Shown: one piece after another, positions 20,178 through 42,942 of the stretch
How positions within the stretch are numbered: position 1 is the first letter of the stretch
Layout of the letters: each line of letters opens with the position of its first letter
NCBI GenBank assembly: GCA_016183815.1
Contig: JACPDW010000023.1
Location: 1 to 64,000, forward strand
Reading direction: 5' to 3'
Source of the DNA: Flavobacteriia bacterium
Lineage (GTDB): Bacteria > Bacteroidota > Bacteroidia > Flavobacteriales_D > Crocinitomicaceae
Length of the DNA: 64,000 nt
Program-made: the position numbers and the translations under genes
Notes under the pieces: model-generated
What the model saw: the letters and a program-made list of their open reading frames with translations, nothing else
What the model was told of the DNA's origin: nothing
Databases searched by the model: none

Positions 20178-21170
20178 TTGAAAACACTTTTTTACATTTT
20201 TATTTTTTTTAATTGTGCAATATTATTTGCCCAAGATGTTCATTGGTCACAATTTTACGACAATCCACTTTTTATTAGTCCTTCAAATACTGGAAATCAC
20301 GATGGAGAACATCGAATCATCACTTCATATAAAGATCAATGGAGATCAGTTACCAAAGCTTTTCAAACATTTTCTTTGTCTTACGATAAAAAACTTAAAA
20401 ATGAAGATCTTAGATTAGGTGCCGTTTTTCTGAGTGATCAAGTAGGCGATGGAAAATTTAAAACTATGGAATTGTTACTCAGCTCCTCTTATTTTATTCC
20501 TCTCAACCAAAAAAAAACACATAATTTTTTAACAGGCATTCAATTAGGTTGGAATCATCGCTCATTCGATTTTAATCAATTTTATTTTGATGAACAATAC
20601 AATGGAGTTACCTACGACCCATCTATTCAAAACACTGAAGATTTGGCTCAAGATAAAAAAAACAACTTTACACTTTCTGCTGGTGTCAAATATCAAGCAG
20701 TTTTGAAAAATAAATCATTATTTGAATTCTCCTATTCTACTTTTAATTTAAATCAAGCTAATAATAGTTTTTATCAAAGTAAGGTGAAAAGAGACTTAAG
20801 ACACACACTTTTTGTTCAATATTTTTGGAATTATGATAAAAAATTCAAAATACTTCCTTCCATCATTTTTCAAAAACAAGGGGAGTTTAATGAATTTCTA
20901 TTTGGAAGTAATTTTCAAACTCATTTTATAAAAAAAAGATCGACTCAAGTTGTTCATTTTGGAGTTTTTATGCGTCTTAAAGACGCTTTTATTGTCAAAA
21001 CTGGACTTCAATACAATTCATGGTATTTGGGCTTAAGTTATGACGTAAATATTTCTTCTTTACAAACTGCTAGCAATAAAAGAGGTGGATTTGAGATAAA
21101 TTTAAGATATATTCTTTACAAATTACGAACAGAAAATAAAATTTACCAACAATGTCCAGATTTCTTATAA
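20178..21170 (+). CDS. PorP/SprF family type IX secretion-associated outer membrane protein
   Basis: The 330-residue protein has a signal peptide (residues 1-19, ending ILFAQ) and then the family hallmark DVHWSQFYDNPLFISPSNTG. It would form an outer-membrane beta-barrel of the PorP/SprF family, members of which anchor or help export T9SS cargo. The start is a TTG at 20178; no ATG fits the signal peptide better. The following OmpA-like gene overlaps its end by 19 nt, the usual pairing for this family. Paralogues are common, so this need not be the core PorP. Confidence 0.88.
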   Translation: MKTLFYIFIFFNCAILFAQDVHWSQFYDNPLFISPSNTGNHDGEHRIITSYKDQWRSVTKAFQTFSLSYDKKLKNEDLRLGAVFLSDQVGDGKFKTMELLLSSSYFIPLNQKKTHNFLTGIQLGWNHRSFDFNQFYFDEQYNGVTYDPSIQNTEDLAQDKKNNFTLSAGVKYQAVLKNKSLFEFSYSTFNLNQANNSFYQSKVKRDLRHTLFVQYFWNYDKKFKILPSIIFQKQGEFNEFLFGSNFQTHFIKKRSTQVVHFGVFMRLKDAFIVKTGLQYNSWYLGLSYDVNISSLQTASNKRGGFEINLRYILYKLRTENKIYQQCPDFL

Positions 21171-23401
21171 TTATTGTTTTGTTTATTTTCTCCTTTCAGT
21201 ATTATTCACAAGATTTTACTCAAGATTATTTTCTTCATGCTCAAAATGAAAAAGAAAAAGGTGATTTTAAAGAAGGCATTGAATATATGAAAAAATTGTT
21301 TGAAATAGACTCAAATAAAGTGGACTATTTATGGTTATATGCTGAACTTTTAAGATTGGAAAAAAATTACTCATTGGCAGAATATTATTATAAAAAAGTT
21401 TATGACAAAGAGGAGTCAAGAATTTATTTGAGGTCTCTTTTTTACCTCGCTGAAATGAAAAAAATGAACGGCAAATACGACGAAGCGTTAGAATTATACA
21501 AAAAATGTAAAAAAAAATACGCTTATGACAAAAAGGAATATTTGTATTTAAAATCTACACAAGAAATGGAATCCTGTTTATGGTTAAAAAAAGCAAAGAT
21601 GGACAGTGCTTCTGTTTCATTTAATAAAACACTTCCATTTAATTCTTCAGAAAGTGAGTTTGCACCAATGATCAATGACAATAAATTTTATTTTTCATCT
21701 CTTAGAGCAGATTCCATTTCTAAAAGCGGAGAAATCATTTCCAAAAATTATAAAAGTAACATCTATTTTTTAGAAGGGAAAGACAGTTCGACTTTAACTT
21801 TACTTTTTGAAACCAACTCTTTAAAAGAGCATCATGCAAACATTACTTTTTCTCTCGATGGTAAAAGAATTTATTTTTCTTCCTGTAAGGAAAACTTAAA
21901 CGAACCTTCTTGTAAAATACTAATGGCTTATCTTGTGAAAGACAAAGTTTTAGAAATTGACACATTAGACGAAATAGTAAACGAAGCCGATGCCAATACG
22001 AGCATGCCTTACATTGCACATTTTGACGACAAGGAAGTTCTTTTTTTCTCATCAAATAGAGCTGGCGGAAAAGGAGGGATGGATTTATATTATTCCTATA
22101 TTGAAGACGAAGGTAAGAAATACTCCATGCCTTTTCCTGTGGACAAAGTAAATTCTCCAGGAAACGAAGTAACTCCTTTTTATGATAGTATTGACAAAAA
22201 ATTGTATTTTTCCTCCGATTGGCACTTTGGCTTTGGTGGTTACGATTTGTTTTGTTCACCATTTTTGAATTATTCGTTTCAAAAACCTGAAAACTTAATG
22301 CTGCCTGTTAACAGCACAAACAATGATTTATATCTAGTACGTTATAATAAACAATACTATTTTTCAAGTAATCGTTCTGAAAACAACAATTCAACTTGTT
22401 GCAGTAATATTTACACTTTTAAATACAAAGAAAAAGAAATAGAACATCAAGTGCTCGCTACTAATGAACTACGTACTTTTAAAAGTTTAGAAGATTTAAA
22501 TAAAAAACTTCCCGTTACTTTATTTTTTCATAACGACATGCCAAATCCTAAATCGTTAGATACAATTTCTAATGTGAGTTATATGACATCATATAATGAC
22601 TATGTCCAATTGATTCCAAAATATAAAAAAGAATATTCAAGCGGACTTGCAAAAGAAAAAATATCTGATGCTGAAGAAGATATTGAAAGTTTTTTTATTG
22701 AATATGTAAATCAAGGTGTTGAAGATTTAGAAGTGTTCTGCAAACTTCTATTAAAAGAATTAGAAAACAAATCCTCTGTTATTTTAACAGTTAAAGGATT
22801 TGCAAGCCCTCTTGCCAAAAGTGATTATAATGTCAATTTAACAAAAAGACGGATTTCCTCTTTAGTAAATTATTTAAAAGTTTATGAAAACGGAATTTTT
22901 CAAAAATATTTATTTCCTGTTCATGTAGATAGTACAAAATTATTGATACAAGAGGTTCCTTTTGGAGAATATGTAGCTGAGAAATGGGTAAGTGACAACC
23001 CTAACGATTCAAAAAATTCGATTTATTCGCGAGCAGCTGCTTTAGAACGAAAAATTGAAATTCAAAGTGTTAATTATCTCACTCAAGACACCAGTTTATT
23101 GTTAAGTGCCAAAAAACAATTACTTAATTTAGGTTCCATTTCAAAAAATAATAAATTAAAAATAGCTTTTGAAGTAAAAAACATCGGACACCTTCCTGTT
23201 GAAATAGATTCAATTGGTGTTCCTTGCAAATGCAACAGTGCAGAATCCACATTTTCAATACTTAAACCAAATGAAACTGGAATCATTTATTTATATTTTG
23301 ACCCAATAGATTATATTGGTAAAACAGTAAAATCAATTTATGTTTATACAAAAAACAGCAAAACACCTTTACGTTTGGTAATTACTGCAGAAACAAATTA
23401 G
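21152..23401 (+). CDS. OmpA-like envelope protein with TPR, WD40-like, OmpA and DUF1573 domains
   Basis: The 749-residue exported protein has a signal peptide (residues 1-20). Residues about 25-130 form tetratricopeptide-like helices, and 165-425 are PD40/WD40-like propeller repeats with FSSLRAD, IYFSSCKE, LFFSSNRAGGKGGMDLYY and LYFSSDWHFGFGGYDLF. An OmpA-like peptidoglycan-binding segment at about 540-590 shows GFASPLAKSDYNVNLTKRR. The final 90 residues match DUF1573 (NIGHLPVEIDSIGVPCKC). PorE-type T9SS proteins share the first three parts; the extra C-terminal DUF1573 domain is unusual. It overlaps the PorP/SprF-like gene and probably works with it at the outer membrane. Confidence 0.8.
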   Translation: MSRFLIIIVLFIFSFQYYSQDFTQDYFLHAQNEKEKGDFKEGIEYMKKLFEIDSNKVDYLWLYAELLRLEKNYSLAEYYYKKVYDKEESRIYLRSLFYLAEMKKMNGKYDEALELYKKCKKKYAYDKKEYLYLKSTQEMESCLWLKKAKMDSASVSFNKTLPFNSSESEFAPMINDNKFYFSSLRADSISKSGEIISKNYKSNIYFLEGKDSSTLTLLFETNSLKEHHANITFSLDGKRIYFSSCKENLNEPSCKILMAYLVKDKVLEIDTLDEIVNEADANTSMPYIAHFDDKEVLFFSSNRAGGKGGMDLYYSYIEDEGKKYSMPFPVDKVNSPGNEVTPFYDSIDKKLYFSSDWHFGFGGYDLFCSPFLNYSFQKPENLMLPVNSTNNDLYLVRYNKQYYFSSNRSENNNSTCCSNIYTFKYKEKEIEHQVLATNELRTFKSLEDLNKKLPVTLFFHNDMPNPKSLDTISNVSYMTSYNDYVQLIPKYKKEYSSGLAKEKISDAEEDIESFFIEYVNQGVEDLEVFCKLLLKELENKSSVILTVKGFASPLAKSDYNVNLTKRRISSLVNYLKVYENGIFQKYLFPVHVDSTKLLIQEVPFGEYVAEKWVSDNPNDSKNSIYSRAAALERKIEIQSVNYLTQDTSLLLSAKKQLLNLGSISKNNKLKIAFEVKNIGHLPVEIDSIGVPCKCNSAESTFSILKPNETGIIYLYFDPIDYIGKTVKSIYVYTKNSKTPLRLVITAETN

Positions 23402-24985: not shown

Positions 24986-25375
24986 TTACCCATTTACAAT
25001 CTTCTCAGCTATTTCTTCTAATTCTTGTTTAGTTAAATTTAGCTTTGGGTTTGAAAAACTCATGTCATTAATAGTGGAAATTGGAATTAAATGAATATGT
25101 GCATGGGGCACTTCTAAGCCAACTATTGTCATTCCTACCCTTTTACAATCAAATGCTTTTTCTATTTTTTTCACTATTTTTTTTGAAAACAAAATTAACT
25201 CACTTAGCAAATCATCGTTTAAATCATAAAACTTATCCACTTCCACTTTAGGTATGACAAGTACATGACCTTTTTTTAATGGGTTGATGTCTAAAAAAGC
25301 CAAACAATGTTCATTTTCAGCAATTTTATAACAAGGAATTTCTCCATTTACTATTTTACTAAAAATGCTACTCAT
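24986..25375 (-). CDS. HIT family (histidine triad) nucleotide hydrolase
   Basis: The 129-residue protein is a small HINT-like purine nucleoside phosphoramidase. It starts SSIFSKIVNGEIPCYKI, has KKGHVLVIPK around residues 36-45 and ends with the triad HAHIHLIP near residues 103-110. Length is typical. Its ATG shares one base with the greA stop codon (TAATG), so it is translated from the greA transcript. Physiological substrate is unknown. Confidence 0.93.
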   Translation of the reverse strand: MSSIFSKIVNGEIPCYKIAENEHCLAFLDINPLKKGHVLVIPKVEVDKFYDLNDDLLSELILFSKKIVKKIEKAFDCKRVGMTIVGLEVPHAHIHLIPISTINDMSFSNPKLNLTKQELEEIAEKIVNG

Positions 25376-25848
25376 TATCTAGAGATGTCCATGATTTCAA
25401 ATTTTACAATTCCATTGGGTGTTTGAATTTCAGCAACTTCACTAACTTTTTTACCTAACAATCCTTTACCGATAGGAGAATCGACAGAAATTTTCTTTAA
25501 TTTCAAATCTGCTTCATTTTCTGCTACTAATGTGTATTCAAGCATCATGTTGTTGAGTAAATTTTTAATTTTTACTTTTGACAAAATAAGCACTTTGGAA
25601 TTATCAATGTGGCTATCGTCAATAACTCTAGCATTTGCAACAATTGCTTCCAATTTAGCTATTTTCATTTCTAAAATTCCTTGAGCTTCTTTAGCAGCAT
25701 CATATTCAGCATTTTCAGACAAATCTCCTTTATCACGAGCTTCAGCGATTTGATTAGAAATAGAAGGCCTTTGCACTGTTTTCATTTCATGCAATTCATC
25801 TTTTAATTTTTTTAAACCTTCTTTTGTATAATATGTAATTTGTGACAT
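25375..25848 (-). CDS. greA: Transcription elongation factor GreA
   Basis: GreA rescues backtracked RNA polymerase by stimulating transcript cleavage. The 157-residue protein has the N-terminal coiled coil (residues about 1-75) with the acidic tip DLSENAEYDAAKEAQG, and a C-terminal FKBP-like domain containing SPIGKGLLGKKVSEVAEIQTP. Length is standard. It is coupled to the HIT gene downstream and isolated from the envelope operon upstream by a strong terminator. Confidence 0.97.
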   Translation of the reverse strand: MSQITYYTKEGLKKLKDELHEMKTVQRPSISNQIAEARDKGDLSENAEYDAAKEAQGILEMKIAKLEAIVANARVIDDSHIDNSKVLILSKVKIKNLLNNMMLEYTLVAENEADLKLKKISVDSPIGKGLLGKKVSEVAEIQTPNGIVKFEIMDISR

Positions 25849-25868: not shown

Positions 25869-25900
25869 AAAACAAGAGAGCCGTTTGACCCTCTTGTTTT
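25869..25900 (-). terminator. Rho-independent terminator of the envelope operon
   Basis: The inverted repeat AAAACAAGAG/CTCTTGTTTT has a 12-nt loop. On the minus strand the second arm ends in a T run. It lies just downstream of the PorV-like stop at 25921 and before greA. Confidence 0.85.
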
Positions 25901-25920: not shown

Positions 25921-26976
25921 TTATTTTAATCCAACTGCAACACCAAAGGTATGAACAAACCCAAAAGGACCAGCCATACGCATGCCGTATTCAATACCAA
26001 GAGGATTTTTATTTTTACCAGTTAAAAAATCTAAAGAAAACCCTGCTGTCGGGCCAATTAATGCATTGGTTCTGTTTTCTGTACTAAATATATTTTTCTC
26101 ATATACGTAACCCAAACGAATGTTTAAAGCGATTTTTTCTTTTACTAAAGCATAATCAAATGCTAAACGATACTGATCGCTAAAAAATGAATTTGCTGTG
26201 AAACCAAAAATAGCAGTTAATTTACTCATCTCATTTAAAATAAAGTCATACGAAGCACCAATATTTAATAATGAAGGCATTTCAAAACTTTGAGAACGTT
26301 GTTCTAGTGAAGCAATACTACCTGTTTCTACATAAGTAGCTTGATAAGCCAAACCATCACCTTTATATTTCATTGTAGGACCAACATTTTTTAAAGAAAT
26401 TCCTAATTTAAACTGTTCTTTATCTCCAGTTACATATTTAATCCCTGCATCAACAGCCATTCCAGTAGCTTTTAAATCTGCTATGGCTTCAGAAATCACT
26501 TTAAAATTGATACCACCAGAAATTGAATTTGAAAACTTTTTGGCATACCCCACATTAAAAACATTTAAACGAGGCGAAAAAAATCCGATACCTCCTTCTG
26601 GATTTTCAACTGTTGTTCTCTGAATATCACCAAAATTCATGGATTGAATACTTACAGCTATAACACTTGATTCAGATAATCTTTGAGCTAAACCTGCAGC
26701 AAAAAATTTAATTTCAGCATTGCCTAACCAATTGGTCATATTAAATTTAATCTGAGTTTTATCACAAGTTGTTAATCCACCCATGTTTAAATAACTTGCT
26801 TCTAAGCCAGTTGCATTAGCAAAACCAGCACTTGCAGTACCTGTTGTTCTTGCCCATGGATTTATTAACAATTGTTGAGCCCCTGCTGAACCAACACGGT
26901 CTTCATTTCCAGCAAAACCTATTGTTCCAATTAAAATCGAACCAACAAGAGAAAAATTAATTAATATTTTATTCAT
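25921..26976 (-). CDS. PorV/PorQ-like outer membrane beta-barrel protein
   Basis: The 351-residue protein has a signal peptide (residues 1-22) followed by an N-terminal segment typical of PorV/PorQ proteins: SAGAQQLLINPWARTTG and the LNMGGLT region. The rest is alternating amphipathic strands consistent with a FadL-like 14-strand barrel. PorV shuttles folded T9SS cargo from the translocon to the attachment machinery. This gene follows a giant T9SS cargo gene after 20 nt, which suggests a dedicated partner. I do not claim it is the core PorV, since paralogues occur. Confidence 0.8.
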   Translation of the reverse strand: MNKILINFSLVGSILIGTIGFAGNEDRVGSAGAQQLLINPWARTTGTASAGFANATGLEASYLNMGGLTTCDKTQIKFNMTNWLGNAEIKFFAAGLAQRLSESSVIAVSIQSMNFGDIQRTTVENPEGGIGFFSPRLNVFNVGYAKKFSNSISGGINFKVISEAIADLKATGMAVDAGIKYVTGDKEQFKLGISLKNVGPTMKYKGDGLAYQATYVETGSIASLEQRSQSFEMPSLLNIGASYDFILNEMSKLTAIFGFTANSFFSDQYRLAFDYALVKEKIALNIRLGYVYEKNIFSTENRTNALIGPTAGFSLDFLTGKNKNPLGIEYGMRMAGPFGFVHTFGVAVGLK

Positions 26977-26996
26977 ATCTTTTAATTTACTTTATT

Positions 26997-29900
26997 TTAA
27001 ATGTTTTCTAAGTCAATTGCACGTACTCCACCAAAAAACTTAATTACTCTTTCACCAGCATCTGGTACTTCTACATGAATTAGATATACACCACTTGCAA
27101 TTGGAATTCCTTTAGAATTTTTCATGTCCCAATCTACTGAAGTAACAGGACTATCTTTTTTGAATGTACGTATTAATTTTCCAGAAATGTTATAAATTTT
27201 TACTGTACATTTATCAGGTAAGTTGGTAATTTTAACTCTTGTATCTAAACGATTTCTTTCATACTCTGAAAATGCATAATATGGGTTTGGCACAACATTA
27301 ATCATATCTAAAGCCGATTTTAGTTGGTCTAAACTTCCTACTTCCGTCATGTATTGATCCATATTCCAAGAATACATTGGTCGTCCATCGTTTTCACCAG
27401 TCGCAACATAATCATTGTATTCTTTATTTACTCGTAATCTGATCTTTACATCTGTTTCTAATAATGTACGACCTTCGGAAAGAATAGGATTAAATACCCA
27501 ACTTAAATTAGAAAATAAGTCTAAATAATCTGAATTAGCTGCAGCAACATATTTGTCATAAACCCAATTTGTTGTAGAATTTGGATCGTAATGAGGACAA
27601 TTTTTAGCACTACTTGCATCTCCAGAAATATTGTTTCCAAACACATAGAAAGCATGTTGTCCACCTAATAATGGGGCTTGAGCAGGATTTCCAAAATTTG
27701 AACTTGGATTCCAAATCATATCAGCTCCATTTTCCTTTCCTAAGAATGAATTTTCACCAAACGCCATATATAATCTTACACCCGTTTCTACATCAATTGC
27801 ATATCCAGGAAACCAACCCATGCCAGTTCCAGTGCCATCTGGTTTTCCATCTTTGTCAACACTTTGACTTCTTCTAAGCGTTCCAGCTGGAGCATCTCCG
27901 ATGTTTAAGGTTGCGTCTCTACCAAGTTCTAATACAGGACATCTAGTCCATTTACTTTTGTCAGAAGTAATATATACATCAACACTAGGTAGTTTCATTA
28001 AAGTATTTTTTTGTCTAGCTTGAGTCAAGGTTCCTGATGTTGATGGATTAGCAAATGGCATAAAAGGCCCTTGATAACCTACCAATCTAAAAGGAGCTAC
28101 ACCTCCACTTAACAATTTACTAAACTGATCTTTATAATCAATAGATTTATCAGAAAATACTTCATCAGGATAATCACATGGATTTGTATATTTATCTTCT
28201 GTACAATCATCAGTTGTAGGAGCATAAGTACCACTTCTTATCCAGTTTGTTGGGTCAAATGAATTTTGATCTGATATTGGTAATATCCACATTTTAGATG
28301 AATCTTTAAACTCAATTGTTGCTTCTAAAGGAGAGGTAATTCTTCTTTCCCCATCTGTTGAAGTTTCTGCATTTCTCAAATACATCTCTTGAGTAATTTG
28401 AATAGAAACACCCCATTCTGGTACTAATTGCTCATTAAGAGAAGATGTCTGAGGATTGTCCACTGTAAATAAATTAGGACTTTGTATTCTTAAAGAGTCA
28501 GCTAAATTACCAATTGTTACATCTGAAGTAATTGAATCTAAAATTGTACCACCCATTTGGTCGTATCTATATACAACCCAACTTGCAGTATCTATTCCTT
28601 TTCCATTTTTAGCTTCATTAGTTTCTTCATTGATATAATTATTGAATTTTAATTCAAAGTAACCAGGAGCAACATTTAAAGGATCCACCACTTTTACTTT
28701 AATTGGCCCTTTTGATTGTGCATAAGTAATTTTACTTACTTTACCAGAATTACATATTTCATCAATTGATGCTTGAGTTAAATCTACTGCAAGACCACCA
28801 TTGCCTCGTCCGTCCAATCTTGTAATCTCAGGGCCTTCACCGTAATTTAATTTTGAAATAGTACCCATTAGTTCAGGTGCAGGGTGGTGAGGGATTGCAG
28901 GAATTGTTTTTACTGCTCCTAAATCATATCCATTTCTTGAAGAAACATATCTTCTTTTTTGACCATCTAACTGATTCGGGTCGTTTGGATCGTAATTTTT
29001 AAAATTATTGTGTGCATAAGCGATGGCAAAATAATAATAAGTTTTGTGGTTTACTAAAGTTCTAACTCCAGAAGCAAATACATCTTCAGTGATTCTAAAA
29101 CTATGTTGTATCCCTTTGTTTGCACCATTTACACGTTCAACCGCTAAATCATAACCAATTTCATCGTCGAATTCAAAATTAACTATTCGGTCAATGTCAT
29201 TTTTTATATCACATTGAGCAACTAATCTCACTTTAGATAAATCTCCAATATCAGCTGGAGTAACGTTTTCATCAGTAGTTTGATAAATTTGATACCCTTC
29301 AAAATTGTAATAACGGTCATAATTAAATCCAAATGGAATATTTATCTCATCTTCCACATTATATTCTTCATCAACATTATTCCCACTTGGATTGTCTATC
29401 ATTAATATCAATTCATTTTCTAATTCTTGAATTGTTAATCTAGGAGCTGTTGGTGGGTCAAATATTTTAAAACAATTGTCAAATAAAGCTTGGGCCTTTG
29501 TATCCCCAGTTTTTAATCCACGAACAGAAGCCAATAAATCTCCTTTTGAGCTAGCAAATACAATTCCAACAGTAATGTTATTAATAGCACCAGGTTTTAA
29601 GGTAAAAGGACCAGCGGATTGAACGAAACGACGGTCACCTGATTGATTACCAGCCTGTACTTCATCCCACGAGAAACCAGGGTCTGTACCCCCAGTTGCC
29701 CAAAATAATGTATCTGAATCAGCAGGTAACATATAAGAAGATGGGATTGAAGTTCCAGAACCTGGATAACCAGTACCACCATAAACAGGCTGTGCACCGT
29801 CTCTCCATAAACCTTGCATATAATTGTAATGATGTGAAGCTGATTGAGGATCTGATTGTGCTGTAGGTGCTGTAGAGGTATAATAAGCAAAATTTCGCAT

Positions 29901-31229
29901 TCCAAAACGCTCATTGTCAATTACTCCATCACCATAACCTATACCTAAACCAAAATATACAATACCTTTTAAAGCAATAGCTTCAGCTACTGTAGGTAAT
30001 TCCAATACTAATGTTCCATTTTGATCTACATATCTTGGACCAGGATTATCAACTCCATCTGCATCTTGGTAAGGTCCCTCAAAAAAGTCAACACCAATCG
30101 CTGGAGGGTCTTCACCATATCCCAAACTGTTTGCGTTTGGTTCATCTACTTCATCACCATTGTAACAATAACCTAAACCTCTAGTTACATCACAACCTAC
30201 ATAATCGTCAGAATAATTACCTAAATCGGTATCAACATACTGTGAAAAGTATGTATTTGTCAATGTTTGTGTTCCTCTATTAATTAACTCATAATTATAA
30301 AAAGTCATTCTATTTACTTCATCACTGGTATTAAAAGTAAAGGCTTGAGCTCTAATTTCCATACCAATTGGGTCACCTCCAGTTTCACCATGTATATTTC
30401 CTTTGTCATTGAATACCCACCAAATGGTATTGTCACCAAAAAGTGTAATACGTCTGTCCACTCCACATTCTACGTCGTCTCTTCCCATAATATCATCGTA
30501 CCAAGGAGAATCTCCATCATCTGAATTATACGCTCCATCGTTATTTCTATCGTAAAAAGGTGCTAAATAATAATCTTGTCCCATAGAAGTATTTCCATGT
30601 GCTGGCCAATTTGCAATTCTATTGATGGATTCATTACTAGGTACCAAAACATCGTCACAATTATCAGGAGCTGGAGTAATATTGCCATCACATTCCCACC
30701 ACATTGTATATTGTATAGCTTCTGCTTTTGACATAGGAAAAAAGCGATCATATTCCAAACAAGTTTCTGGAGTAATTGTTGCTTCTCCAAAATCTCTTCT
30801 AGCTAAATCTCCTACTGGGTATCTTGGATCGTAATCACCGCTACCAGCAGTAACAGTTAAAGGACCAGTCCAAAAGTCAACTCCTGAATCTCTAAATCTC
30901 TGAGCTGCTAATTTAAGCTGACCATTGACATCTGTTCCTCCCATCCACAAACTTCCTGCATATATTGCAGAAACCTTTCCACCTTTAGGCACTTCGTAAG
31001 AAGCTCTACCTGCAGCTCTGTCTAAAAACATCAAACCAGCTGGTTCTAATAATGCACTTACATCATTATAATCCATTTTAATTTGAGCACGAGCAGGAGC
31101 ACAATTGGCTTTATTATAAACTCCATCTCCTCCTTTTCCACCAGTTTTTGGTTTTCCATCATAATAAGCATACGAACTGATGCTTATACAAAGAAGAGAA
31201 ATAACTAAACTACTTTTCATCGTTTTCAT
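26997..31229 (-). CDS. Large secreted protein with T9SS type A C-terminal sorting domain
   Basis: The 1410-residue product has a signal peptide (ending SSYAYYDG) and a long extracellular region rich in Asp, Gly and aromatic residues without a recognised enzyme domain. Its last 90 residues look like a FlgD-like/T9SS sorting domain: VVPNPYYAFSEYERN, VKITNLPDKCTVKIYNISG and GIPIASGVYLIHVE. The repeated WWECDG, YYLAPFYDRNNDGAYN and similar motifs resemble proteins common in Bacteroidota and encoded between a TonB receptor and a PorV-like barrel. It would be surface-exposed or released; the function is unknown. Spacing to both neighbours is about 20 nt. Confidence 0.82.
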   Translation of the reverse strand: MKTMKSSLVISLLCISISSYAYYDGKPKTGGKGGDGVYNKANCAPARAQIKMDYNDVSALLEPAGLMFLDRAAGRASYEVPKGGKVSAIYAGSLWMGGTDVNGQLKLAAQRFRDSGVDFWTGPLTVTAGSGDYDPRYPVGDLARRDFGEATITPETCLEYDRFFPMSKAEAIQYTMWWECDGNITPAPDNCDDVLVPSNESINRIANWPAHGNTSMGQDYYLAPFYDRNNDGAYNSDDGDSPWYDDIMGRDDVECGVDRRITLFGDNTIWWVFNDKGNIHGETGGDPIGMEIRAQAFTFNTSDEVNRMTFYNYELINRGTQTLTNTYFSQYVDTDLGNYSDDYVGCDVTRGLGYCYNGDEVDEPNANSLGYGEDPPAIGVDFFEGPYQDADGVDNPGPRYVDQNGTLVLELPTVAEAIALKGIVYFGLGIGYGDGVIDNERFGMRNFAYYTSTAPTAQSDPQSASHHYNYMQGLWRDGAQPVYGGTGYPGSGTSIPSSYMLPADSDTLFWATGGTDPGFSWDEVQAGNQSGDRRFVQSAGPFTLKPGAINNITVGIVFASSKGDLLASVRGLKTGDTKAQALFDNCFKIFDPPTAPRLTIQELENELILMIDNPSGNNVDEEYNVEDEINIPFGFNYDRYYNFEGYQIYQTTDENVTPADIGDLSKVRLVAQCDIKNDIDRIVNFEFDDEIGYDLAVERVNGANKGIQHSFRITEDVFASGVRTLVNHKTYYYFAIAYAHNNFKNYDPNDPNQLDGQKRRYVSSRNGYDLGAVKTIPAIPHHPAPELMGTISKLNYGEGPEITRLDGRGNGGLAVDLTQASIDEICNSGKVSKITYAQSKGPIKVKVVDPLNVAPGYFELKFNNYINEETNEAKNGKGIDTASWVVYRYDQMGGTILDSITSDVTIGNLADSLRIQSPNLFTVDNPQTSSLNEQLVPEWGVSIQITQEMYLRNAETSTDGERRITSPLEATIEFKDSSKMWILPISDQNSFDPTNWIRSGTYAPTTDDCTEDKYTNPCDYPDEVFSDKSIDYKDQFSKLLSGGVAPFRLVGYQGPFMPFANPSTSGTLTQARQKNTLMKLPSVDVYITSDKSKWTRCPVLELGRDATLNIGDAPAGTLRRSQSVDKDGKPDGTGTGMGWFPGYAIDVETGVRLYMAFGENSFLGKENGADMIWNPSSNFGNPAQAPLLGGQHAFYVFGNNISGDASSAKNCPHYDPNSTTNWVYDKYVAAANSDYLDLFSNLSWVFNPILSEGRTLLETDVKIRLRVNKEYNDYVATGENDGRPMYSWNMDQYMTEVGSLDQLKSALDMINVVPNPYYAFSEYERNRLDTRVKITNLPDKCTVKIYNISGKLIRTFKKDSPVTSVDWDMKNSKGIPIASGVYLIHVEVPDAGERVIKFFGGVRAIDLENI

Positions 31230-31247
31230 TTTTCAAATTTTTTTGTG

Positions 31248-34200
31248 TTAGAAATCAAATTTCAACCCTAGTCTTATAGTTCTTGGAATACTTATGTTGT
31301 ATGGATTTTGAATCTTCATTTGATAATAATCTCTGAAAGATTGCTCATCCAACTGATTTTGAATTGCATTTTGATACTGAGCAGCAGCTAAGTATCCATC
31401 GTCATCCCAGTTACCTGTTGCACGATATACATCTATAATATTTAATTGATTAAATAAGTTTGTGACTCTTATATAAACATTCAAAAAGGTTTCTTTCTTT
31501 TTATTTTCATCTTTACCCATTTTTAAAGTAAAAGAACGATCCACCTGAAGGTCTAAACGGTATTGCCAAGGCAGTCTTGAACCATTTCTAGTACCTGTCA
31601 AACCAAAACTTAAAGGGCTAAAAACTCCTTCATTCGAGATTTCTGTTTGATTTGAGTAAGGCGAACCAGAATATATATTTGTAATAAGGTTAATACCCGT
31701 ATTTTCAAATAATTTTACACCGGCTATTGATGGACCATTATACTCTTCACCTTCTCCATAACGATAATCAGCAGAAATATTAATGGCGTGTCTTTGGTCA
31801 TAATCATAAGGGAAAATACTTCTAAAATTAGGTAATCCTGCATTAATTATCCCTTGTTGAGAGGTTGCATCTGAACCAGTACCTTCAGCAAATTGAAGTG
31901 TATAATTCGCTGTCATTCTAAAGTTACCTGTTTGTCTCAAATCATAAGAAATTGTTAATCCTTTAACTGTTCCAAAGTCTCTATTTCCATAAGTTTTGTA
32001 TGTAACAGGATAGGCTTGAAATACATTGATTAATTGCACTTGATTTCTTTGTTCTCTATAAAAAGCCGATATTTTAATAGCAGACGTTTTACCTAAAACT
32101 TGTTGGAAACCTAATTCATAATCAATAGTTGTTTCAGGTTTTAGATTTGGGTTACTAAATATTGAAGAAGAACGTTCTCTAATAAATTGGTATTCAAAAG
32201 GATCAAATCTAAATCCAGAAGTAGGTCTTTTGGTTAAGATATCATAATGAGCAAAGAAAGACGCTTCATCAGATATCGGGAAAGAGAAAGCAACCCTTGG
32301 CATCACATTTATTTGAGTTTTATAATCTTCAAAAGCTTTTTCAGATATTTTACCTGTAGCAGCTAAATCAGGATCTAACAACCAAGGTGCTATTCCATTT
32401 GAACCAGCTATTGTTTGTGCATTTTCAATTTCAATACCATTTTTGTCATACCAAATATCTTCTTTTCTAAATCCATTAATTTGAGTTGGATTTTCAACAT
32501 TATCCACATATACCACATAATCATCTTCCATACTTGTTGGAATGTTTACCCAAGAATACGAATTTGGGTTTTTAGAAACAAGATCTTTTGCCTCTTTAAC
32601 AGTGTTTGCTTCGTACAACAAATACTTATCTTTCAATACAGGTTGATTAGCGTTAAACGCATCTACACGAACCCCAACGTTAAAAACTATATCTTTGAAA
32701 GCAAATTTATCCATAATGTAACCAGACACATAAACTGGCTGAAATGCTCCAATTTTACGAACATAGTTGCCGTTTTCATCTAACTCATTAAAATATTTGT
32801 TAATATCGGTATTTCCTTTAACTTTTTTCCCTGTATGGTCATATCCCCAATAAGAAACATAAGAATTACCGCTGTTAAATAACTCATCGGGAGTAAACAT
32901 ATCTAAAGAAAACATATTGGGATCTAAAGCATCGATATTTACAAAATCATTACCTGCTACATTATATCCTAATTTTTCTCTCAAATTATAATCAAAAAAG
33001 GATTGGTCGTCATTATATCCACCATAATTACCAGTTCCACTTTGATAAGCATATCCTGAATTTAATCTTTCATATCTGATATGTGGAATAGTACCCCTAT
33101 AAAAAACATAAGGTTTAGAAGTATCTAACTCAGCTATATGTTTATTTGCTAACTGACGAGCCGTTGTCCAAAGACCAGTAGGACCATTATCATTCCCGTT
33201 AGTATTTGTACCATTTTCAAATCCTCTGTCTGTTCTTTTTTCGTATTCAAATCCAAGAGAGATGGAATGGTCACCAATGTTTACTGATCCAGAACCAGTA
33301 ATACGGAATTGTGAATTATCTCTTTTCAAAAAACCATTGTATGGAGCTCCAATATTTGACCATATTGAATACACACTGCTTGGTAAATCTCCATTTCTTA
33401 GAGCATTTCCTTGTTGAATTTGGAATAAATTTTCATAAACTCCAGCGGGTTCTCTATCTGAAAAGATATTAAAATATTGAGTTGTAATTGCAGCTAACTC
33501 TGGATTAATATCAGAAGGAGTATAAGTTACACTAACATCTGTTGGTATTGCTTCTTGAAATTTAAATTCTGTAAACTGAAAACTTGCATTTCTCGGGTCT
33601 GTATAAAACCCTGTTGTGTACATTGTTTCTTGTTGAATATCAAAATAACCAACATGACCATAATTAAACAAATTATATTTGTGGTCTTTGTCGTATTGTT
33701 TAATGTTTTGTTTTGAGAAGTCAACATTTAAGGTATAAAAAGCGGATTTAATTTTAGAACTACTACCTTCTTTGTCATTTGTAAATCGCTGAGTTAAACG
33801 ACCATACACCCTCCAGTCAATTCTTTCATCAAAACCAAAGTTTGTAAAATTAAGCAATGAATTAGATCTATTATAAATAGTGCCATTGTCATAATTTAAT
33901 GAACCACCAAACGACAAGTTTACAGATGGCCCAGTATTAACATCAATTTTTCCTGAAGCTGAAATTGTTTTTTGGCGGGCATTCATTCTCCATTTAACCA
34001 GTTCAAAATCATCTTTTCTTAAATAATTTGCTGAGCTTAGAGGAACATCAGCAACTCTAACTAAAGGATTATTTATTAATTCTTCTCTTACTTCTTTTTT
34101 TACACGATAAGAACCACCAGAAAGTGGACGGTCATCTAACTGATCAGTAAAGTTTAACGAAACTAAAAATCCCAATCTTGGTTTTGTTTTTCTTCCTGTA

Positions 34201-35063
34201 GAATCTTTCTGCATCCAAAGTGGACCAGACAACATACCTTCAACGAGATTGTAACCGTATTTATCTAAACCATAAACTTTTCCATCATAGCCCAATTCGT
34301 CTTTACCTTTAAAATAAAAACCTGAAGAAACGGCTTCAACACTTCCGAAAAATTTAGAAGATGGTCCCCTTGTAGTTACGGAAATAATTCCACCCGTTGC
34401 ATCTCCATAATTTGCAGGCAAACCACCTGTAATTACAGAAACCTCTTCAATGGCTGATTTTGGTAAATTGGAAGATCCTCTAACCTTGATACCATCAATA
34501 TAAAAATAGGTGTCGTCAGAACGAGAACCTCTGATACTAATATCACCTGACCCCTCTTGGACATTTACACCACCAACAGTACTTGCCACTCCAGTAGCAC
34601 TACGAGCAGGCAAACGAGCTATATCTTCACGAGTGATGGTAGAGCCTGAAGCACCACCATCTTTATTAATTAAAGGCACTTTATAGGCAACCACAACAAC
34701 CTCCTCAATTTCTTTCACACTTGAAGCTTTTGCTAAAGTTAGATCGTCTAGGAAAGTAATTTTATCACCATTTACAACCACTCCTGTAGTCAAAGCAGCT
34801 TGATAACCTTCCCCTTCGTTTCTAACTTCTACATCATACTCACCTGCAGCAATGGAGTTGATTTGAAATTTACCATCAAAATCAGTATTGGCACCACCTT
34901 TTATTGTGTTATTTTGCTTCAATAAAACTTTACAACCAAAGATGGGTTGCTTGGTTTTTTCGTCTTTAATAACACCTTTTATGGTTCCCAAACCTGTTTG
35001 AGAATATGCGTAAGTCATTGTCAACAATACACTTACTAATCCAAATTTTAATTTTCTTAACAT
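31248..35063 (-). CDS. TonB-dependent outer membrane receptor with carboxypeptidase-regulatory-like domain
   Basis: The 1271-residue protein has a signal peptide (residues 1-21), a carboxypeptidase-regulatory-like beta-sandwich (about 25-105, GTIKGVIKDEKTKQPIFGCKV), a plug domain (about 140-240, DISIRGSRSDDTYFYIDGIKV and ITGGLPANYGDATGGII) and a large barrel ending in an aromatic residue (LGLKFDF). It imports or senses a large ligand using TonB energy. No SusD-like lipoprotein gene is next to it; instead a T9SS cargo and a PorV-like barrel follow, which is unlike a classical polysaccharide utilisation locus. The ligand cannot be deduced. Confidence 0.9.
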   Translation of the reverse strand: MLRKLKFGLVSVLLTMTYAYSQTGLGTIKGVIKDEKTKQPIFGCKVLLKQNNTIKGGANTDFDGKFQINSIAAGEYDVEVRNEGEGYQAALTTGVVVNGDKITFLDDLTLAKASSVKEIEEVVVVAYKVPLINKDGGASGSTITREDIARLPARSATGVASTVGGVNVQEGSGDISIRGSRSDDTYFYIDGIKVRGSSNLPKSAIEEVSVITGGLPANYGDATGGIISVTTRGPSSKFFGSVEAVSSGFYFKGKDELGYDGKVYGLDKYGYNLVEGMLSGPLWMQKDSTGRKTKPRLGFLVSLNFTDQLDDRPLSGGSYRVKKEVREELINNPLVRVADVPLSSANYLRKDDFELVKWRMNARQKTISASGKIDVNTGPSVNLSFGGSLNYDNGTIYNRSNSLLNFTNFGFDERIDWRVYGRLTQRFTNDKEGSSSKIKSAFYTLNVDFSKQNIKQYDKDHKYNLFNYGHVGYFDIQQETMYTTGFYTDPRNASFQFTEFKFQEAIPTDVSVTYTPSDINPELAAITTQYFNIFSDREPAGVYENLFQIQQGNALRNGDLPSSVYSIWSNIGAPYNGFLKRDNSQFRITGSGSVNIGDHSISLGFEYEKRTDRGFENGTNTNGNDNGPTGLWTTARQLANKHIAELDTSKPYVFYRGTIPHIRYERLNSGYAYQSGTGNYGGYNDDQSFFDYNLREKLGYNVAGNDFVNIDALDPNMFSLDMFTPDELFNSGNSYVSYWGYDHTGKKVKGNTDINKYFNELDENGNYVRKIGAFQPVYVSGYIMDKFAFKDIVFNVGVRVDAFNANQPVLKDKYLLYEANTVKEAKDLVSKNPNSYSWVNIPTSMEDDYVVYVDNVENPTQINGFRKEDIWYDKNGIEIENAQTIAGSNGIAPWLLDPDLAATGKISEKAFEDYKTQINVMPRVAFSFPISDEASFFAHYDILTKRPTSGFRFDPFEYQFIRERSSSIFSNPNLKPETTIDYELGFQQVLGKTSAIKISAFYREQRNQVQLINVFQAYPVTYKTYGNRDFGTVKGLTISYDLRQTGNFRMTANYTLQFAEGTGSDATSQQGIINAGLPNFRSIFPYDYDQRHAINISADYRYGEGEEYNGPSIAGVKLFENTGINLITNIYSGSPYSNQTEISNEGVFSPLSFGLTGTRNGSRLPWQYRLDLQVDRSFTLKMGKDENKKKETFLNVYIRVTNLFNQLNIIDVYRATGNWDDDGYLAAAQYQNAIQNQLDEQSFRDYYQMKIQNPYNISIPRTIRLGLKFDF

Positions 35064-35260
35064 AAGTACACCTTATTTTTTATACTATATTAGCGATTTA
35101 AAGGTCGTAAATATAGTTATTTCTTATTTATTAATATCAAATTGTTAATTTTTTTTAAAAATTTTTTCTTTTTATATTTTTAACAAATTTACATGATTCG
35201 TTTTAAATCTTAACTAAGATAAATGTTTTAATTTTTTTATTTTTATACCCATCTAAAAAA

Positions 35261-35288
35261 AAAGACCATCAATAATTTGACAGTCTTT
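35261..35288 (-). terminator. Rho-independent terminator after tsf
   Basis: The arms AAAGAC and GTCTTT, with an inner TCA/TGA pair, form a hairpin. On the minus strand it is followed by a long T run. It begins 23 nt downstream of the tsf stop. Confidence 0.75.
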
Positions 35289-35310
35289 CATTTATAAAAT
35301 TAATTTTTAT

Positions 35311-38008: not shown

Positions 38009-39718
38009 TTAATTAATCGCTGATAAATATTCACTTAAAACAACTGTAGAATTTAAATTTAACTTTCTTTTTAATCTATTTTTAAAAATTTTAACACTGT
38101 CATCAGTAATATTTCTGTATTCTGCAATTTCTTTGTTAGATAAATTGAGTTTTATTAAAGAACAAAGTTCAATTTCTGTTTTAGTTAGTGTAGGGTGCAG
38201 TTGGATTAATTTATTTTTAAAATTTATTAATATGAGTTCTGAATTTTGGTTTAAATCTTCGACTCTTTTATCTAAACTTTGTTTAATTTTCAGTTCGGAA
38301 AGTAGTTTTTTAATTTCTTGTTTTATTTCTGATTCTTTAATAGAAGAGAGGTAAATAAGCTGTGAAACGATTTCCAAATCCATTTCTTTTTTCTTGGAAA
38401 AATCAATCGCAAATTCGGTTAAGTTTTTTTCTTGTTGTCCTATTTTTAACTTCAATTTTTCTTCTTCAAGAAGTAGAAATTCCTTTTCTAAAATGGCTTT
38501 CTTTTGTTTATTTTTAAGGTATTGATATAGGACGTATAAAACAATAATAAATAAAATCAAAAAAGTTATAAAAGCAATTTTAATAAAATAGTTTTCTTTT
38601 TTTTCAAGATCCAATTTTTTCAAGGAATTTTCTTTTTCTTTTTGTTCAATCGTCAAACGAATTTTTGCTTCTGAAACAAGGAATTTTGCCACAATAACAT
38701 TTGAACTATTCAAAGCGATTTTTTTGTCTATTTCAATTTTATTTTGAATTTCCTTGATTTTTTCAAAAACATACTTGGCTTTTTCGAATTTATTTTCGTA
38801 TAAAGCTATTTCATGTTGCAGTGATAAAAAATAATATTTTGAACTATTGTTCATGAGTTTAAAACTTTTTTCGATAGATTTTTCAATCTCTTTGGCTTTT
38901 TTTATTTCATTAATTCTGAGATATATCGAAACTATTAAATTTTGATAAAAAGCTTTTGTTAAATATTTTTTTGTTTTTAGGTCGTTTTCATGAACCAATT
39001 TTAAACTCAAAATAGCTTTTTTAAATTGTTTAAGTTCAAATAAACATCGACCTATGTTTTCTTCTAAACTAAAGTAGAAATCGAGATCTTTTATGTTATT
39101 ATTCATGATTTTTTTTGCTTCATAAAAATTATTTAATGCTTTTTCAAACATTTTTTTTTGAAAATAAGCCAAACCAATATTATTTATTGATGAGGCGTAA
39201 TAAAGTTTATTTTTGATTTTTGAACTGGATTTTGATTGTAAAGTAAAATAAAACAACGCACTATCTAATTGATTGATTTGGTAAAACATTGAACCAACAC
39301 TATTGGCCGCTAGAAATTTCGTAAACTCGTCTTTGGTTTGATTAAATACTTTTTTTTTATATTCAATTGCTGTTGAATATGCTCCAATACTTTGAAATAA
39401 TTCTCCAAAAGCAGAATTGTAAATTTGTTGGTATTTAATTGAATCATTAACGTTTAACTCTTTGGCCGTTATTAATTTATCAAGTGCATCTGAATATTTT
39501 TTATTTTCAATTAAAATTTTAGCATAATTGACATAATAAAAAGTCTTTTCATATTTATTAAACATTGAGATTGATTTATCTCCAATCATTTGCATTGTTT
39601 TTTCAGCTTGTTCATGATTACCTTTTTCAAAATATGACCATGCTTTATTAACTTCAGAGAATTGTGCTTCTACTAAAATAAAAAAGAAAGTATAAAAAGA
39701 CAGCAAAAAGAATTTCAT
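38009..39718 (-). CDS. TPR-containing transcriptional regulator with one membrane segment and LuxR-type HTH
   Basis: The 569-residue protein has a signal peptide or N-terminal anchor (residues 1-18), about seven tetratricopeptide repeats (20-340), one clear membrane helix (about 375-397), a charged coiled coil (400-500) and a C-terminal helix-turn-helix containing LTKTEIELCSLIKLNLSNKEIA followed by RNITDDSVKIFKNRLKRKL. It would sense with its periplasmic TPRs and bind DNA or another partner with the cytoplasmic HTH. This architecture is common in Bacteroidota. Its target genes are not evident; the T9SS protein upstream on the same strand has its own promoter. Confidence 0.82.
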   Translation of the reverse strand: MKFFLLSFYTFFFILVEAQFSEVNKAWSYFEKGNHEQAEKTMQMIGDKSISMFNKYEKTFYYVNYAKILIENKKYSDALDKLITAKELNVNDSIKYQQIYNSAFGELFQSIGAYSTAIEYKKKVFNQTKDEFTKFLAANSVGSMFYQINQLDSALFYFTLQSKSSSKIKNKLYYASSINNIGLAYFQKKMFEKALNNFYEAKKIMNNNIKDLDFYFSLEENIGRCLFELKQFKKAILSLKLVHENDLKTKKYLTKAFYQNLIVSIYLRINEIKKAKEIEKSIEKSFKLMNNSSKYYFLSLQHEIALYENKFEKAKYVFEKIKEIQNKIEIDKKIALNSSNVIVAKFLVSEAKIRLTIEQKEKENSLKKLDLEKKENYFIKIAFITFLILFIIVLYVLYQYLKNKQKKAILEKEFLLLEEEKLKLKIGQQEKNLTEFAIDFSKKKEMDLEIVSQLIYLSSIKESEIKQEIKKLLSELKIKQSLDKRVEDLNQNSELILINFKNKLIQLHPTLTKTEIELCSLIKLNLSNKEIAEYRNITDDSVKIFKNRLKRKLNLNSTVVLSEYLSAIN

Positions 39719-39822: not shown

Positions 39823-42800
39823 TTAGTTTTCAATAATAAGTTTTAAAACTTTATTGAAATTCTTTTTGGACAAGAAGACATAATAAATCCCTGATGACAA
39901 TTCTTTTGTATCGACTTCTGCATTTATTTTGCTTTTATTATTAATATTCACAAGTACTTTTTCACCTAGATTATTGTACAAAGATATTTCCATTTCATTG
40001 ATGTCGTCTCCATATACTAAAACAGCTTTATTCGCAGGATTAGGACTTAAAAAATATAGGTCTTTCGCTAACAACTCTACAGTTTTAATCCCACCTAAAG
40101 TAACTAAACCATTGAAATCAGTTTGTTTTAGTTTATAATAATTTGTACCATAATAAGGGGTTTTGTCTTCTAAATAATATTTTTGTGGCGTTGATGTAGT
40201 TCCCGCCCCATCAACATTTTCGAAAAATTCCCAATTTACACCATCATTTGATTTTTCTATTGTAAAATAATCGTTGTCTCTTTCAGAATTTGTTTCCCAA
40301 GTCAAATCCACCATTTCCAAAATGTTTAAATTCGCTTCAAAAGTTAATAATTCTATAGGAAGAGGAGTTGCAATATCAATTGAAGCAATAGTTACAAATC
40401 TAGTAACGTTGTTTGCAATATGCGTATTTGAGATGTTTGAAACTGTAATCACTGGATTTGAATAGGAGATAACGATTCCAGATCCATCACCATTATAAAA
40501 ACAAGTTGTTCCACCATTTGCAAAATTTCCATCATCATCTACCAAAAAGCGTAAATGAGCTGTAGTTACAGAAGCAGGAGCTGCACTATTACTTAATTTA
40601 AAGTCCATATTAAAATTTTCACCAAAATTGGTTTTTTTAATTCTCCATTCTCTTTCTAAACGCGAGGTTAATACACAACTTGCTAATGCAGGGGAAGGCA
40701 CTTCAGCGTTAGAAGATGCAGTTGCACACATTTTACCTGTATTAGCTCCAACAACAACAAAGGATTTATCAACAGAAAAAGTAGCTGCATTTCCAACATT
40801 TGTTGATGATAGAGTTCCTTTATAAATTCGAACTGTATCGTCATAATTATGTGATTGTTTTTGTAGTAAAACAGAAGCGTCATCTCTTCCAATTCCAATT
40901 ATATTATTTTGATAATTAGCATTTCCAGTCCAAATTTGAGTTCCATCTGAGGACAAATAATCTGTTAAATTAGCAGAGGTTCCTAAGGTAATACCATACT
41001 TAATAGCTAAATATGATTCGACTTGTAAATTTTGTGTTGCTGTTAAAACACTCGGAAAAACAATAAATTCTCCAACTCCTCCAGCCAAATATTCACTACC
41101 TTCGTTATTTCGGAAAATACTAATCTGTTCAGCAGCAGTATTTGGTTGGTTGTTTGATGAGTTCACTTTAAGAACCCCATTATATTTACCTGCAGTTAAT
41201 CCAGAAACATGTCCTCTTATGCTTGCCAAGTGAGCCTGAAAAGAAGGGGAAGCTTGTGTGAACTGATTGTTAGTGCCCATTCCTCCAAATTGATTGTTAA
41301 TCGTGTAAATGCCGTCCCCTTTTAATTTTGCCATTCCATTTGGACCTTTCCATTCTATAGAAACAATCCCAGAATTAAATCCTACAATTTGGAACATTGA
41401 AAAACCATTTCCAGCATTTCCATTTCCTATATTAAAACTTCCAATAGCTTGTAAATAATCATTCACTCCATCTGAAAAAATAAATGGATTGTAATTAAAT
41501 CGATTGTCTGTTGTATTTCCCGAACCATCTTTATATAAAGGTTGATTAGCCGCTGTTCCTTGTGTTACCGTAATTGAAGGTAATACTTGAGACGCCCATG
41601 AAGAAACTAAAGTATTATTTGTAGTAGTATTTGTTGAGGCGTTGCTTTTTAACCATAATGTCGAATTAGCAACACCACCTGGGGCTGTACAGATTATTAT
41701 TGTTCTAGTACCAGCAGGATTAGTAACTGTTGGAATTCTATTAACGGCTGATAAAGTAAACTGAGGAATTATAGCATCAACTGTAGTTCCGACAGTTCCT
41801 GTATTATTTAAATCATAAACCAACCAAAAATAATTTGTTCCACTTTGTAAATTTTGTGAACCGTTGATATTGTATATAGCCACAGTTGGTACAGCTGATC
41901 CAAACAAAGTTGAAGTTGAAAAAGTTGTTGATGTACCAGTATAATAAACTTTTGAAAGACTTACATTTGCAGGTAAAGCTGTTCCAGAAAAGTTGGATTG
42001 AATTTGAGTTAATGTGAGTGGGCTACTTAATCCTGCGGTAGTTATTTCTAATCGTATAATTAATTCATTACTAGAACAGTTGGATATGTTAGTGACAGAT
42101 GACTGTGTAACGGTTGAACTTGTAAAAGTCATTGGTGGTGGGCAATTTCCATTTCCAGTTGAACCCCCAGAATTCACAGTACCAGCAACAGGTTCATGAG
42201 AAGCAATAATTGAAGTTAATCCACCATCTAAGATTTGTGTTCTCATTTCAGTTGGAAATGTTCCACCAGCTGTTTCATAAACACGAATTAAATCTCCAGT
42301 AGCAGCATTAAAAGTAAGGTCTGAAGGGCCAAATCCAGCAGCAAGTGTTACATTTGTTAACACATTTACTCCATTTACTGAAACACTCACTGTTCCACCA
42401 TTCCACCCATCTCCAAAAGTATCTGTCAATCTTAAAGTATGTGTACAACCACAACTCACTGCTGAAACAAAATTAGCCACAACTGTTCCATTAGCAAAAC
42501 CAACAATTGTTTCTGTACTTGCTGTTTTAGTGGCACTTTGAGTTGCCGCTCCTGTAATTGCTCTAACTTGTACTCCACTTATAGTTATGACATCATCACC
42601 ATTCGTTCTGTTTGCTTGATTACTTCTATAAGTAACCGTAATGGTTGTAGCAGTTACTACTACTGAAATTGTTGTAATATCAGCACCGTTTGAAGCAACA
42701 GCACCCACACCAGCATTAAATTGAAAATTAGCAGGTGCAGTTAGGGCGAACGTATAATCCGTGTTTGACGCCGTTATTGGAAAATCATTAAGAGCTCCTT

Positions 42801-42942
42801 CATCAACTACTATATTTCCTAAATTTGAATAAGCACTTGGAAAAGCACAGGTATTTATGTTCAAATTAGGAACCGTTATACCAACAGCTGAATAATTATA
42901 AAAGTAAATAAACGAGAAAATAAAAAGTAAAACATTTTTCAT
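39823..42942 (-). CDS. Large secreted protein with T9SS type A sorting domain
   Basis: The 1039-residue product has a signal peptide (residues 1-18) and a Thr/Asn/Ser-rich extracellular region of beta-sandwich character. It includes TDTFGDGWNGGTVSVSVNG (residues about 170-188) and a central concanavalin/LamG-like part (about 430-660) with ATLWLK-type and YLAIKYGITLG motifs. The last 75 residues are a T9SS sorting domain: FLSPNPANKAVLVYG, MEISLYNNLGEKV and LSSGIYYVFLSKKN. It is exported to the surface or medium. Function is unknown, perhaps adhesion or glycan binding. It is monocistronic with a promoter upstream. Confidence 0.82.
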   Translation of the reverse strand: MKNVLLFIFSFIYFYNYSAVGITVPNLNINTCAFPSAYSNLGNIVVDEGALNDFPITASNTDYTFALTAPANFQFNAGVGAVASNGADITTISVVVTATTITVTYRSNQANRTNGDDVITISGVQVRAITGAATQSATKTASTETIVGFANGTVVANFVSAVSCGCTHTLRLTDTFGDGWNGGTVSVSVNGVNVLTNVTLAAGFGPSDLTFNAATGDLIRVYETAGGTFPTEMRTQILDGGLTSIIASHEPVAGTVNSGGSTGNGNCPPPMTFTSSTVTQSSVTNISNCSSNELIIRLEITTAGLSSPLTLTQIQSNFSGTALPANVSLSKVYYTGTSTTFSTSTLFGSAVPTVAIYNINGSQNLQSGTNYFWLVYDLNNTGTVGTTVDAIIPQFTLSAVNRIPTVTNPAGTRTIIICTAPGGVANSTLWLKSNASTNTTTNNTLVSSWASQVLPSITVTQGTAANQPLYKDGSGNTTDNRFNYNPFIFSDGVNDYLQAIGSFNIGNGNAGNGFSMFQIVGFNSGIVSIEWKGPNGMAKLKGDGIYTINNQFGGMGTNNQFTQASPSFQAHLASIRGHVSGLTAGKYNGVLKVNSSNNQPNTAAEQISIFRNNEGSEYLAGGVGEFIVFPSVLTATQNLQVESYLAIKYGITLGTSANLTDYLSSDGTQIWTGNANYQNNIIGIGRDDASVLLQKQSHNYDDTVRIYKGTLSSTNVGNAATFSVDKSFVVVGANTGKMCATASSNAEVPSPALASCVLTSRLEREWRIKKTNFGENFNMDFKLSNSAAPASVTTAHLRFLVDDDGNFANGGTTCFYNGDGSGIVISYSNPVITVSNISNTHIANNVTRFVTIASIDIATPLPIELLTFEANLNILEMVDLTWETNSERDNDYFTIEKSNDGVNWEFFENVDGAGTTSTPQKYYLEDKTPYYGTNYYKLKQTDFNGLVTLGGIKTVELLAKDLYFLSPNPANKAVLVYGDDINEMEISLYNNLGEKVLVNINNKSKINAEVDTKELSSGIYYVFLSKKNFNKVLKLIIEN

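Follow-up and report, generated by a model that had tools for sequence, protein, structure and literature searches.

On the minus strand of the window, by which we mean the whole 64,000-nt stretch of a Crocinitomicaceae contig that was analysed, three genes for envelope proteins are read one after the other: a TonB-dependent receptor, a large surface protein of the type IX secretion system (T9SS) kind and an outer-membrane barrel of the PorV family, here named PorVx (Table 1). Gaps of 18 and 20 nt separate the receptor gene from that of the large protein and the latter from PorVx, and the barrel gene is followed by a hairpin (25900-25869) that ends about 20 nt ahead of greA. The ORFs match exactly the three closely spaced envelope genes described in the first-pass annotation of this DNA, and its remark that the operon ends at a terminator agrees with the 14-pair, terminator-like form of this hairpin. 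Matches to a Bacteroidota promoter motif in the window did not exceed the chance level, and the trio has none upstream of it. Elsewhere in the window, a gene for a PorP/SprF barrel followed by one for a 749-aa TPR/PD40/DUF1573 protein (20178-23401) makes up a second T9SS-related pair, and positions 38009-39718 encode a likely regulator, a TPR protein that has a LuxR-type DNA-binding domain at its C-terminus and probably one membrane segment.

Table 1. Features of the trio and its immediate surroundings, in window coordinates
Feature	Position	Strand	Description	Basis
TonB-dependent receptor	31248..35063	-	1271 aa; signal peptide, CarboxypepD_reg, TonB-box-like EVVVVAY, plug, barrel	ORF, Pfam, orthologue alignment
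Large T9SS-type surface protein, mostly beta	26997..31229	-	1410 aa	ORF, homologues, AlphaFold2 of both halves
N-terminal module of large protein, residues 45-570	29520..31097	-	Also in 514-607 aa proteins with ordinary sorting domains	
Middle of large protein, residues 571-1300	27330..29519	-	No recognised domain	
C-terminal sorting domain (CTD), residues 1301-1400	27030..27329	-	Nearer PorZ/PorU than ordinary type A	
Conserved extension past usual sorting-domain end, residues 1401-1410	27000..27029	-	Invariant residues, low model confidence	
PorVx, PorV-family outer-membrane barrel	25921..26976	-	351 aa	ORF, NF033709, tree
Terminator-like hairpin ending trio	25869..25900	-	14 pairs, T-rich tail	
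Terminator-like hairpin separating upstream tsf gene from trio	35260..35289	-		
greA and hit genes	24986..25848	-	Class-level conserved neighbours of trio	

The receptor contains a Pfam Plug domain (46.5 bits, against a cut-off of 23.9) and an N-terminal CarboxypepD_reg domain (40.7 bits). In an alignment of 17 orthologues, with a mean column identity of 57%, the plug and TonB-box-like stretches are present in the consensus, and the C-terminal LKFDF ends in two invariant residues, D1270 and F1271. The plug and the C-terminal barrel ending in F by which a TonB-dependent receptor is recognised are both present. Since plug and TonB-box-like sequences occur in the receptor as well as in the orthologue consensus, active transport is its likeliest role. 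None of its NCBIfam matches up to E = 1 is to a SusC/RagA model, and no SusD lipoprotein is encoded beside it, its immediate neighbours being the large protein and, upstream, tsf. The earlier statement that SusD is absent holds for all neighbouring genes scanned, among which no SusD domain was found.

Homologues of the large protein were detected in 38 of the 40 relatives, including every one of the 34 near-complete genomes of the order; the named near relatives are Fluviicola, Brumimicrobium, Crocinitomix and other Crocinitomicaceae (Flavobacteriales). The three genes keep an identical arrangement, with the receptor first and PorVx last, in 17 loci drawn from nine families of this taxonomic order, followed nearly always by greA and usually by hit (the receptor of one of these loci, L032, reads as two ORFs). 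Within the 80 named loci, the large protein is directly flanked in 42 by the receptor on its upstream side and PorVx on its downstream side, several others are truncated where the contig ends, and 23 are stand-alone, with neither partner adjoining; of the full-length relatives in this set, about a third stand alone. Another family of the class carries the trio in three of three loci, again with greA and hit, and outside the class it occurs in the same order in 32 of 33 loci (10 at first, three more, and 19 of 20 in a second draw), a figure that measures linkage frequency and not the share of genomes, the 33 loci having been found via the large protein. A sample of the phylum gave matches to the large protein in 96 of 296 genomes; many of the 200 without a match belong to the same class. 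The trio is also borne by a plasmid of Rhodothermus marinus DSM 4252. The first-pass annotation had named rare co-occurrence of the three genes as evidence against its reading, and the survey across Bacteroidota finds the opposite: the trio is neither a chance nor a local arrangement, and is a real conserved unit.

The surroundings of the trio are far less constant. In distant loci outside the class greA was not seen next to the trio, from which it follows that conservation is a property of the trio itself and not of the region around it; greA and hit, constant in the class and not in distant classes, mark synteny only, and we discarded them as a functional clue or as part of the machine. Other distant neighbours vary and include histone-deacetylase-like, TPR and aminotransferase genes. 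Several further arrangements were observed. In four distant genomes a gene for a GWxTD-domain protein (PF20094) adjoins the trio or lies one gene off (L141:4489-5871, L145:14143-15516, L146:7046-8413 and L147:6215-7573). On the R. marinus plasmid (pRMAR01, L014) an FG-GAP repeat protein encoded upstream of the trio ends in a trio-like CTD, and genes for a peptidoglycan-recognition protein and a serine hydrolase come after the barrel. Six loci (L021, L027, L028, L055, L087 and L122) encode a second large protein just past PorVx or slightly further, along with a single receptor and a single barrel, as if these second copies were alternative surface subunits for one channel.

Across 30 intact loci, the pairwise distances of the three trio proteins show correlations of 0.86-0.92 with one another and of 0.58-0.67 with those of GreA and HIT, and partial correlations with GreA and HIT regressed out lie at 0.74-0.87; because these control proteins are short, the distance correlations may be inflated and are taken as supportive only. 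The highest value, 0.92, joins the receptor and PorVx, as might be expected if the large protein and PorVx formed an anchored pair and the receptor were a structural or secretion-aiding partner instead of an importer, in the manner of PorF (PG0534), which is needed for gingipain secretion in Porphyromonas. A large exported protein could need such help, and in Cytophaga PorV pulled down SprA together with a PorF-like TonB-dependent receptor (PMC8564354). However, PorF is reported to be without a plug (PMC8564354), and the plug and TonB-box-like stretches retained in the 17-orthologue consensus would be superfluous for a mere scaffold, so that we regard a receptor confined to this role as unlikely.

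The genome in question encodes SprA (2450 bits), a TonB C-terminal domain (TonB_C) and about 150 matches to the type A sorting tail. It also has a genuine PorV away from the trio (425 bits), a genuine PorV2 (471 bits, at G000:C17) and a genuine PorQ (295 bits, at G000:C31:76556); the PorU and PorV genes are adjacent, as are those of PorU2 and PorV2, and PorZ is present too. With SprA, TonB, PorU, PorV, PorQ and PorZ all found, the genome is equipped with the export and energy systems on which the trio would depend.

PorVx belongs to the PorV/PorQ family, with 125.6 bits against the NF033709 cut-off of 90, and is also matched by the Pfam PorV model. It scores well below the equivalog cut-offs of PorV (NF033710, 64.3 bits against 250), PorQ (NF033711, 71.1 against 220) and PorV2 (NF052325, 43.3 against 325), and the Pfam searches returned no match to PorP_SprF or to the FadL/Toluene_X family. 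A tree of 57 barrels unites those of near and distant trios in a single group (support 96/88) beside PorV (100/99), PorV2 (100/100) and PorQ (100/100), in a topology that leaves the branching order among the four clades unsettled and places the R. marinus barrel on a long branch. Judged from family models and this tree, PorVx represents a fourth PorV-family clade next to PorV, PorQ and PorV2. Possibly another pair of this general kind lies at G000:C35:4825-7745 (L133), where a weak PorV-family barrel of 286 aa (36.5 bits) overlaps by 4 nt a 687-aa gene without a family match.

The sorting domain of the large protein is likewise set apart from its better-known counterparts. Its tail exceeds the cut-off of the type A model TIGR04183 marginally (25.2 bits against 23), matching positions 13-62 of 72 and leaving both model ends unmatched, and the PorZ model scores 36.2 bits on the same residues; the Pfam type B model, CHU_C, gives no match. 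A pooled model of PorU, PorU2 and PorZ CTDs is uninformative on its own, and since ordinary CTDs also reach 25 bits with it, we used instead a model of ordinary CTDs, trained on half of those in this genome and scored on the held-out half. Held-out ordinary CTDs obtain 61 bits with this model (5-95%: 52-76), PorU, PorU2 and PorZ CTDs 22 bits (15-30) and CTDs of the trio family a median of 12.9 bits (6-20), which puts the large protein outside the ordinary type A class. The earlier claim that the protein carries a sorting domain stands, with the correction that this domain is not of the ordinary type A. The window also holds an ordinary tail for contrast, on a 1039-aa protein with a BNR_assoc_N domain (39823-42942; 40.6 bits).

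Past the usual end of the domain, the large protein continues for about ten residues, of which R1403, D1406 and L1407 are invariant in 22 sequences and a recognisable version of which is found in distant trios. When the C half is folded alone with AlphaFold2, the pLDDT of the last ten residues falls from 60 to 44; the extension is conserved yet modelled as loose in isolation, which is what one would expect of a binding tail. Foldseek matches of the C half are confined to the CTD, the best being PorZ (5m11, E 2.7e-6, 28% identity), followed by the translocon-bound CTDs of NucA and RemZ (TM 0.69 and 0.68, respectively, by target length) and then by PorU and RgpB.

These properties bear on the simplest account of the locus, namely that the large protein is ordinary type A cargo, cut by PorU and then attached to lipopolysaccharide or released, and that the operon reflects mere co-regulation of unrelated envelope genes. 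The TIGR04183 score just above cut-off and the ordinary CTD of L068, a full-length stand-alone relative (51 bits), are in its favour. The CTDs of the trio nevertheless fall far outside the ordinary class and carry the conserved extension, and co-regulation alone would not be expected to keep the gene order constant from class to class; we consider this account improbable.

The body of the large protein offers fewer clues. AlphaFold2 models its two halves with mean pLDDT values of 90 (N half) and 89 (C half), but structure comparison gave no confident match of the N half to any solved fold, and no clue to a substrate emerged. A weak likeness of this half to beta-supersandwich domains of glycoside hydrolases and phosphorylases (E 6e-4) was set aside as evidence of sugar binding, with a TM of about 0.24 and no catalytic domain. 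Sequence searches of the PDB with all three trio proteins returned no matches. Inspection by eye found no lipobox, the signal being of the plain Sec type. As modelled, the large, mostly beta protein is a plausible capture subunit.

Relatives of the large protein outside the trio inform on the link between sorting domain and barrel. The N-terminal or middle region is shared with proteins of 514-607 aa and with three of 951-1040 aa, which end in ordinary CTDs (35-59 bits) and beside which, in the few kilobases read, no receptor or PorVx gene lies in a linked position; at one of these loci (L161) there is a PorQ-like gene nearby, but with an opposite-strand gene in between. Most full-length stand-alone copies retain the trio-type CTD. 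Among them is a paralogue in this same genome (G000:C16:241896-245873; L015:7807-11883) that is 61% identical, has no adjoining receptor or barrel and comes after aspartate-decarboxylase, LPG-synthase-like and cytidylyltransferase-like genes. Such copies may use PorVx in trans; their existence, that of the 61% paralogue included, implies that the large protein can persist without its own copies of the partners. Relatives of the N-terminal module outside the operon thus carry ordinary CTDs, and those of the trio are atypical. Taken as a whole, the pairing of PorVx with the large protein is well supported. Delivery of the large protein by its own PorV paralogue, as put forward in the first-pass annotation, is probably correct, and a separate PorV-family clade with a matching atypical CTD makes it the best-evidenced part of that proposal.

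A precedent for such pairing exists. The CTD of PorU stays uncleaved on PorV and that of PorZ on PorQ, and the cognate barrels have been proposed to shield them (review PMC10202324); inside SprA, loops of PorV touch the CTDs (PMC10994853). By analogy, the trio fits as a further pair of the PorU-PorV or PorZ-PorQ kind with a receptor added: it likewise joins a barrel of the PorV family to a large surface protein bearing a CTD of the kind retained uncleaved in those pairs, and its genes are adjacent, as are those of PorU and PorV. It differs from both in the unrelated body of the large protein, the separate clade of the barrel, the extension of the CTD tail and the TonB-dependent receptor as third member. 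The same likeness could mean that the trio belongs to the secretion system itself, where it would serve envelope building or surface attachment as a further branch of the PorQ/PorZ or PorU2/PorV2 type, and is not a nutrient system. PorVx groups beside three secretion-system barrels, the CTD of its partner is most like those of PorZ and PorU, the near-universal presence in the order is what a housekeeping part would show, and genes for lipid A acyltransferase and heptosyltransferase occur close to one distant trio. Yet the large protein has neither a sortase nor a PorZ body, the CTD alone being common to them, and 200 of the 296 sampled genomes gave no match to it, which leaves a secretion-system module a rather doubtful explanation.

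The interpretation we favour, to which we assign a probability of about 0.5, is that the trio forms one outer-membrane complex in which PorVx would both deliver the large protein and hold it for good, the two acting together with the receptor. PorVx, as a dedicated carrier, would take the large protein by its CTD, which would stay uncleaved and serve as the permanent anchor. The anchored protein would then sit outside the cell, beside or over the TonB-dependent receptor of the same operon, and would capture or admit the ligand of the receptor, much as SusD serves SusC, although with unrelated parts. In this scheme we infer that PorVx binds the CTD, that the CTD is left uncleaved, that the large protein makes contact with the receptor and that the latter is an importer; receptor binding, the lid function and the nature of the substrate are the more conjectural of its elements. 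Two observations weigh against the scheme: the full-length copies that stand alone, and the loci in which one receptor and one barrel are accompanied by two large proteins. The first-pass description of the trio as a dedicated surface machine is still a reasonable reading.

Comparison with other envelope systems delimits this proposed complex. Like SusC-SusD (RagAB), the trio provides a TonB-dependent receptor and a large surface-exposed partner from one operon. Unlike it, the trio has no SusD and no linked enzymes, its partner is a mostly beta T9SS-type protein instead of a helical lipoprotein, there is an additional barrel and the receptor is unmatched by SusC models, which makes the likeness one of analogy and not homology. 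Type B cargo with PorP/SprF, as in SprB-SprF, also consists of a large T9SS protein with a dedicated barrel next door and a CTD that is probably uncleaved, whereas the barrel of the trio is of the PorV family, its CTD is not type B and a receptor is added. In the Bacteroidota BAM complex, a FadL-superfamily barrel, BamG, holds a large extracellular subunit, BamH (PMC12578637), and the trio could be imagined as a variant of that complex, a barrel with a crescent-shaped surface protein following the same theme. No BamA is present in the trio, however, and BamH is a lipoprotein whereas the large protein combines a plain Sec-type signal with a CTD of the T9SS; BamG belongs to the FadL/Toluene_X family, by which PorVx is unmatched. 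Family membership thus largely refutes the BAM-like reading, which we consider highly improbable. On sequence criteria, then, the trio is not a SusCD system, and its barrel is not a member of PorV, PorQ, PorV2, SprF or BAM.

More tentatively, and as a possibility we hold to be somewhat less probable than its alternatives taken together, the trio may represent a second phylum-wide design for uptake, in which a TonB-dependent receptor works with an extracellular capture subunit that type IX secretion exports and that its own carrier barrel tethers permanently. Such a design would be an independent counterpart of SusC-SusD, and PorV-family carriers would have been turned into anchors repeatedly. 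If the proposed complex is real, TonB-driven import and type IX secretion, thought to be separate, would be joined in one machine. The trio is kept through whole orders and classes and yet seems undescribed in the papers searched, which were open-licence full texts, with subscription journals and preprints outside the search. The trio would also suggest a rule for the many unnamed "PorV/PorQ family" barrels, by which each may serve a single kind of surface protein as its private carrier and anchor. The partner of a barrel would then be readable from the type of sorting domain, and the escape of some type IX domains from cleavage would become directly testable.
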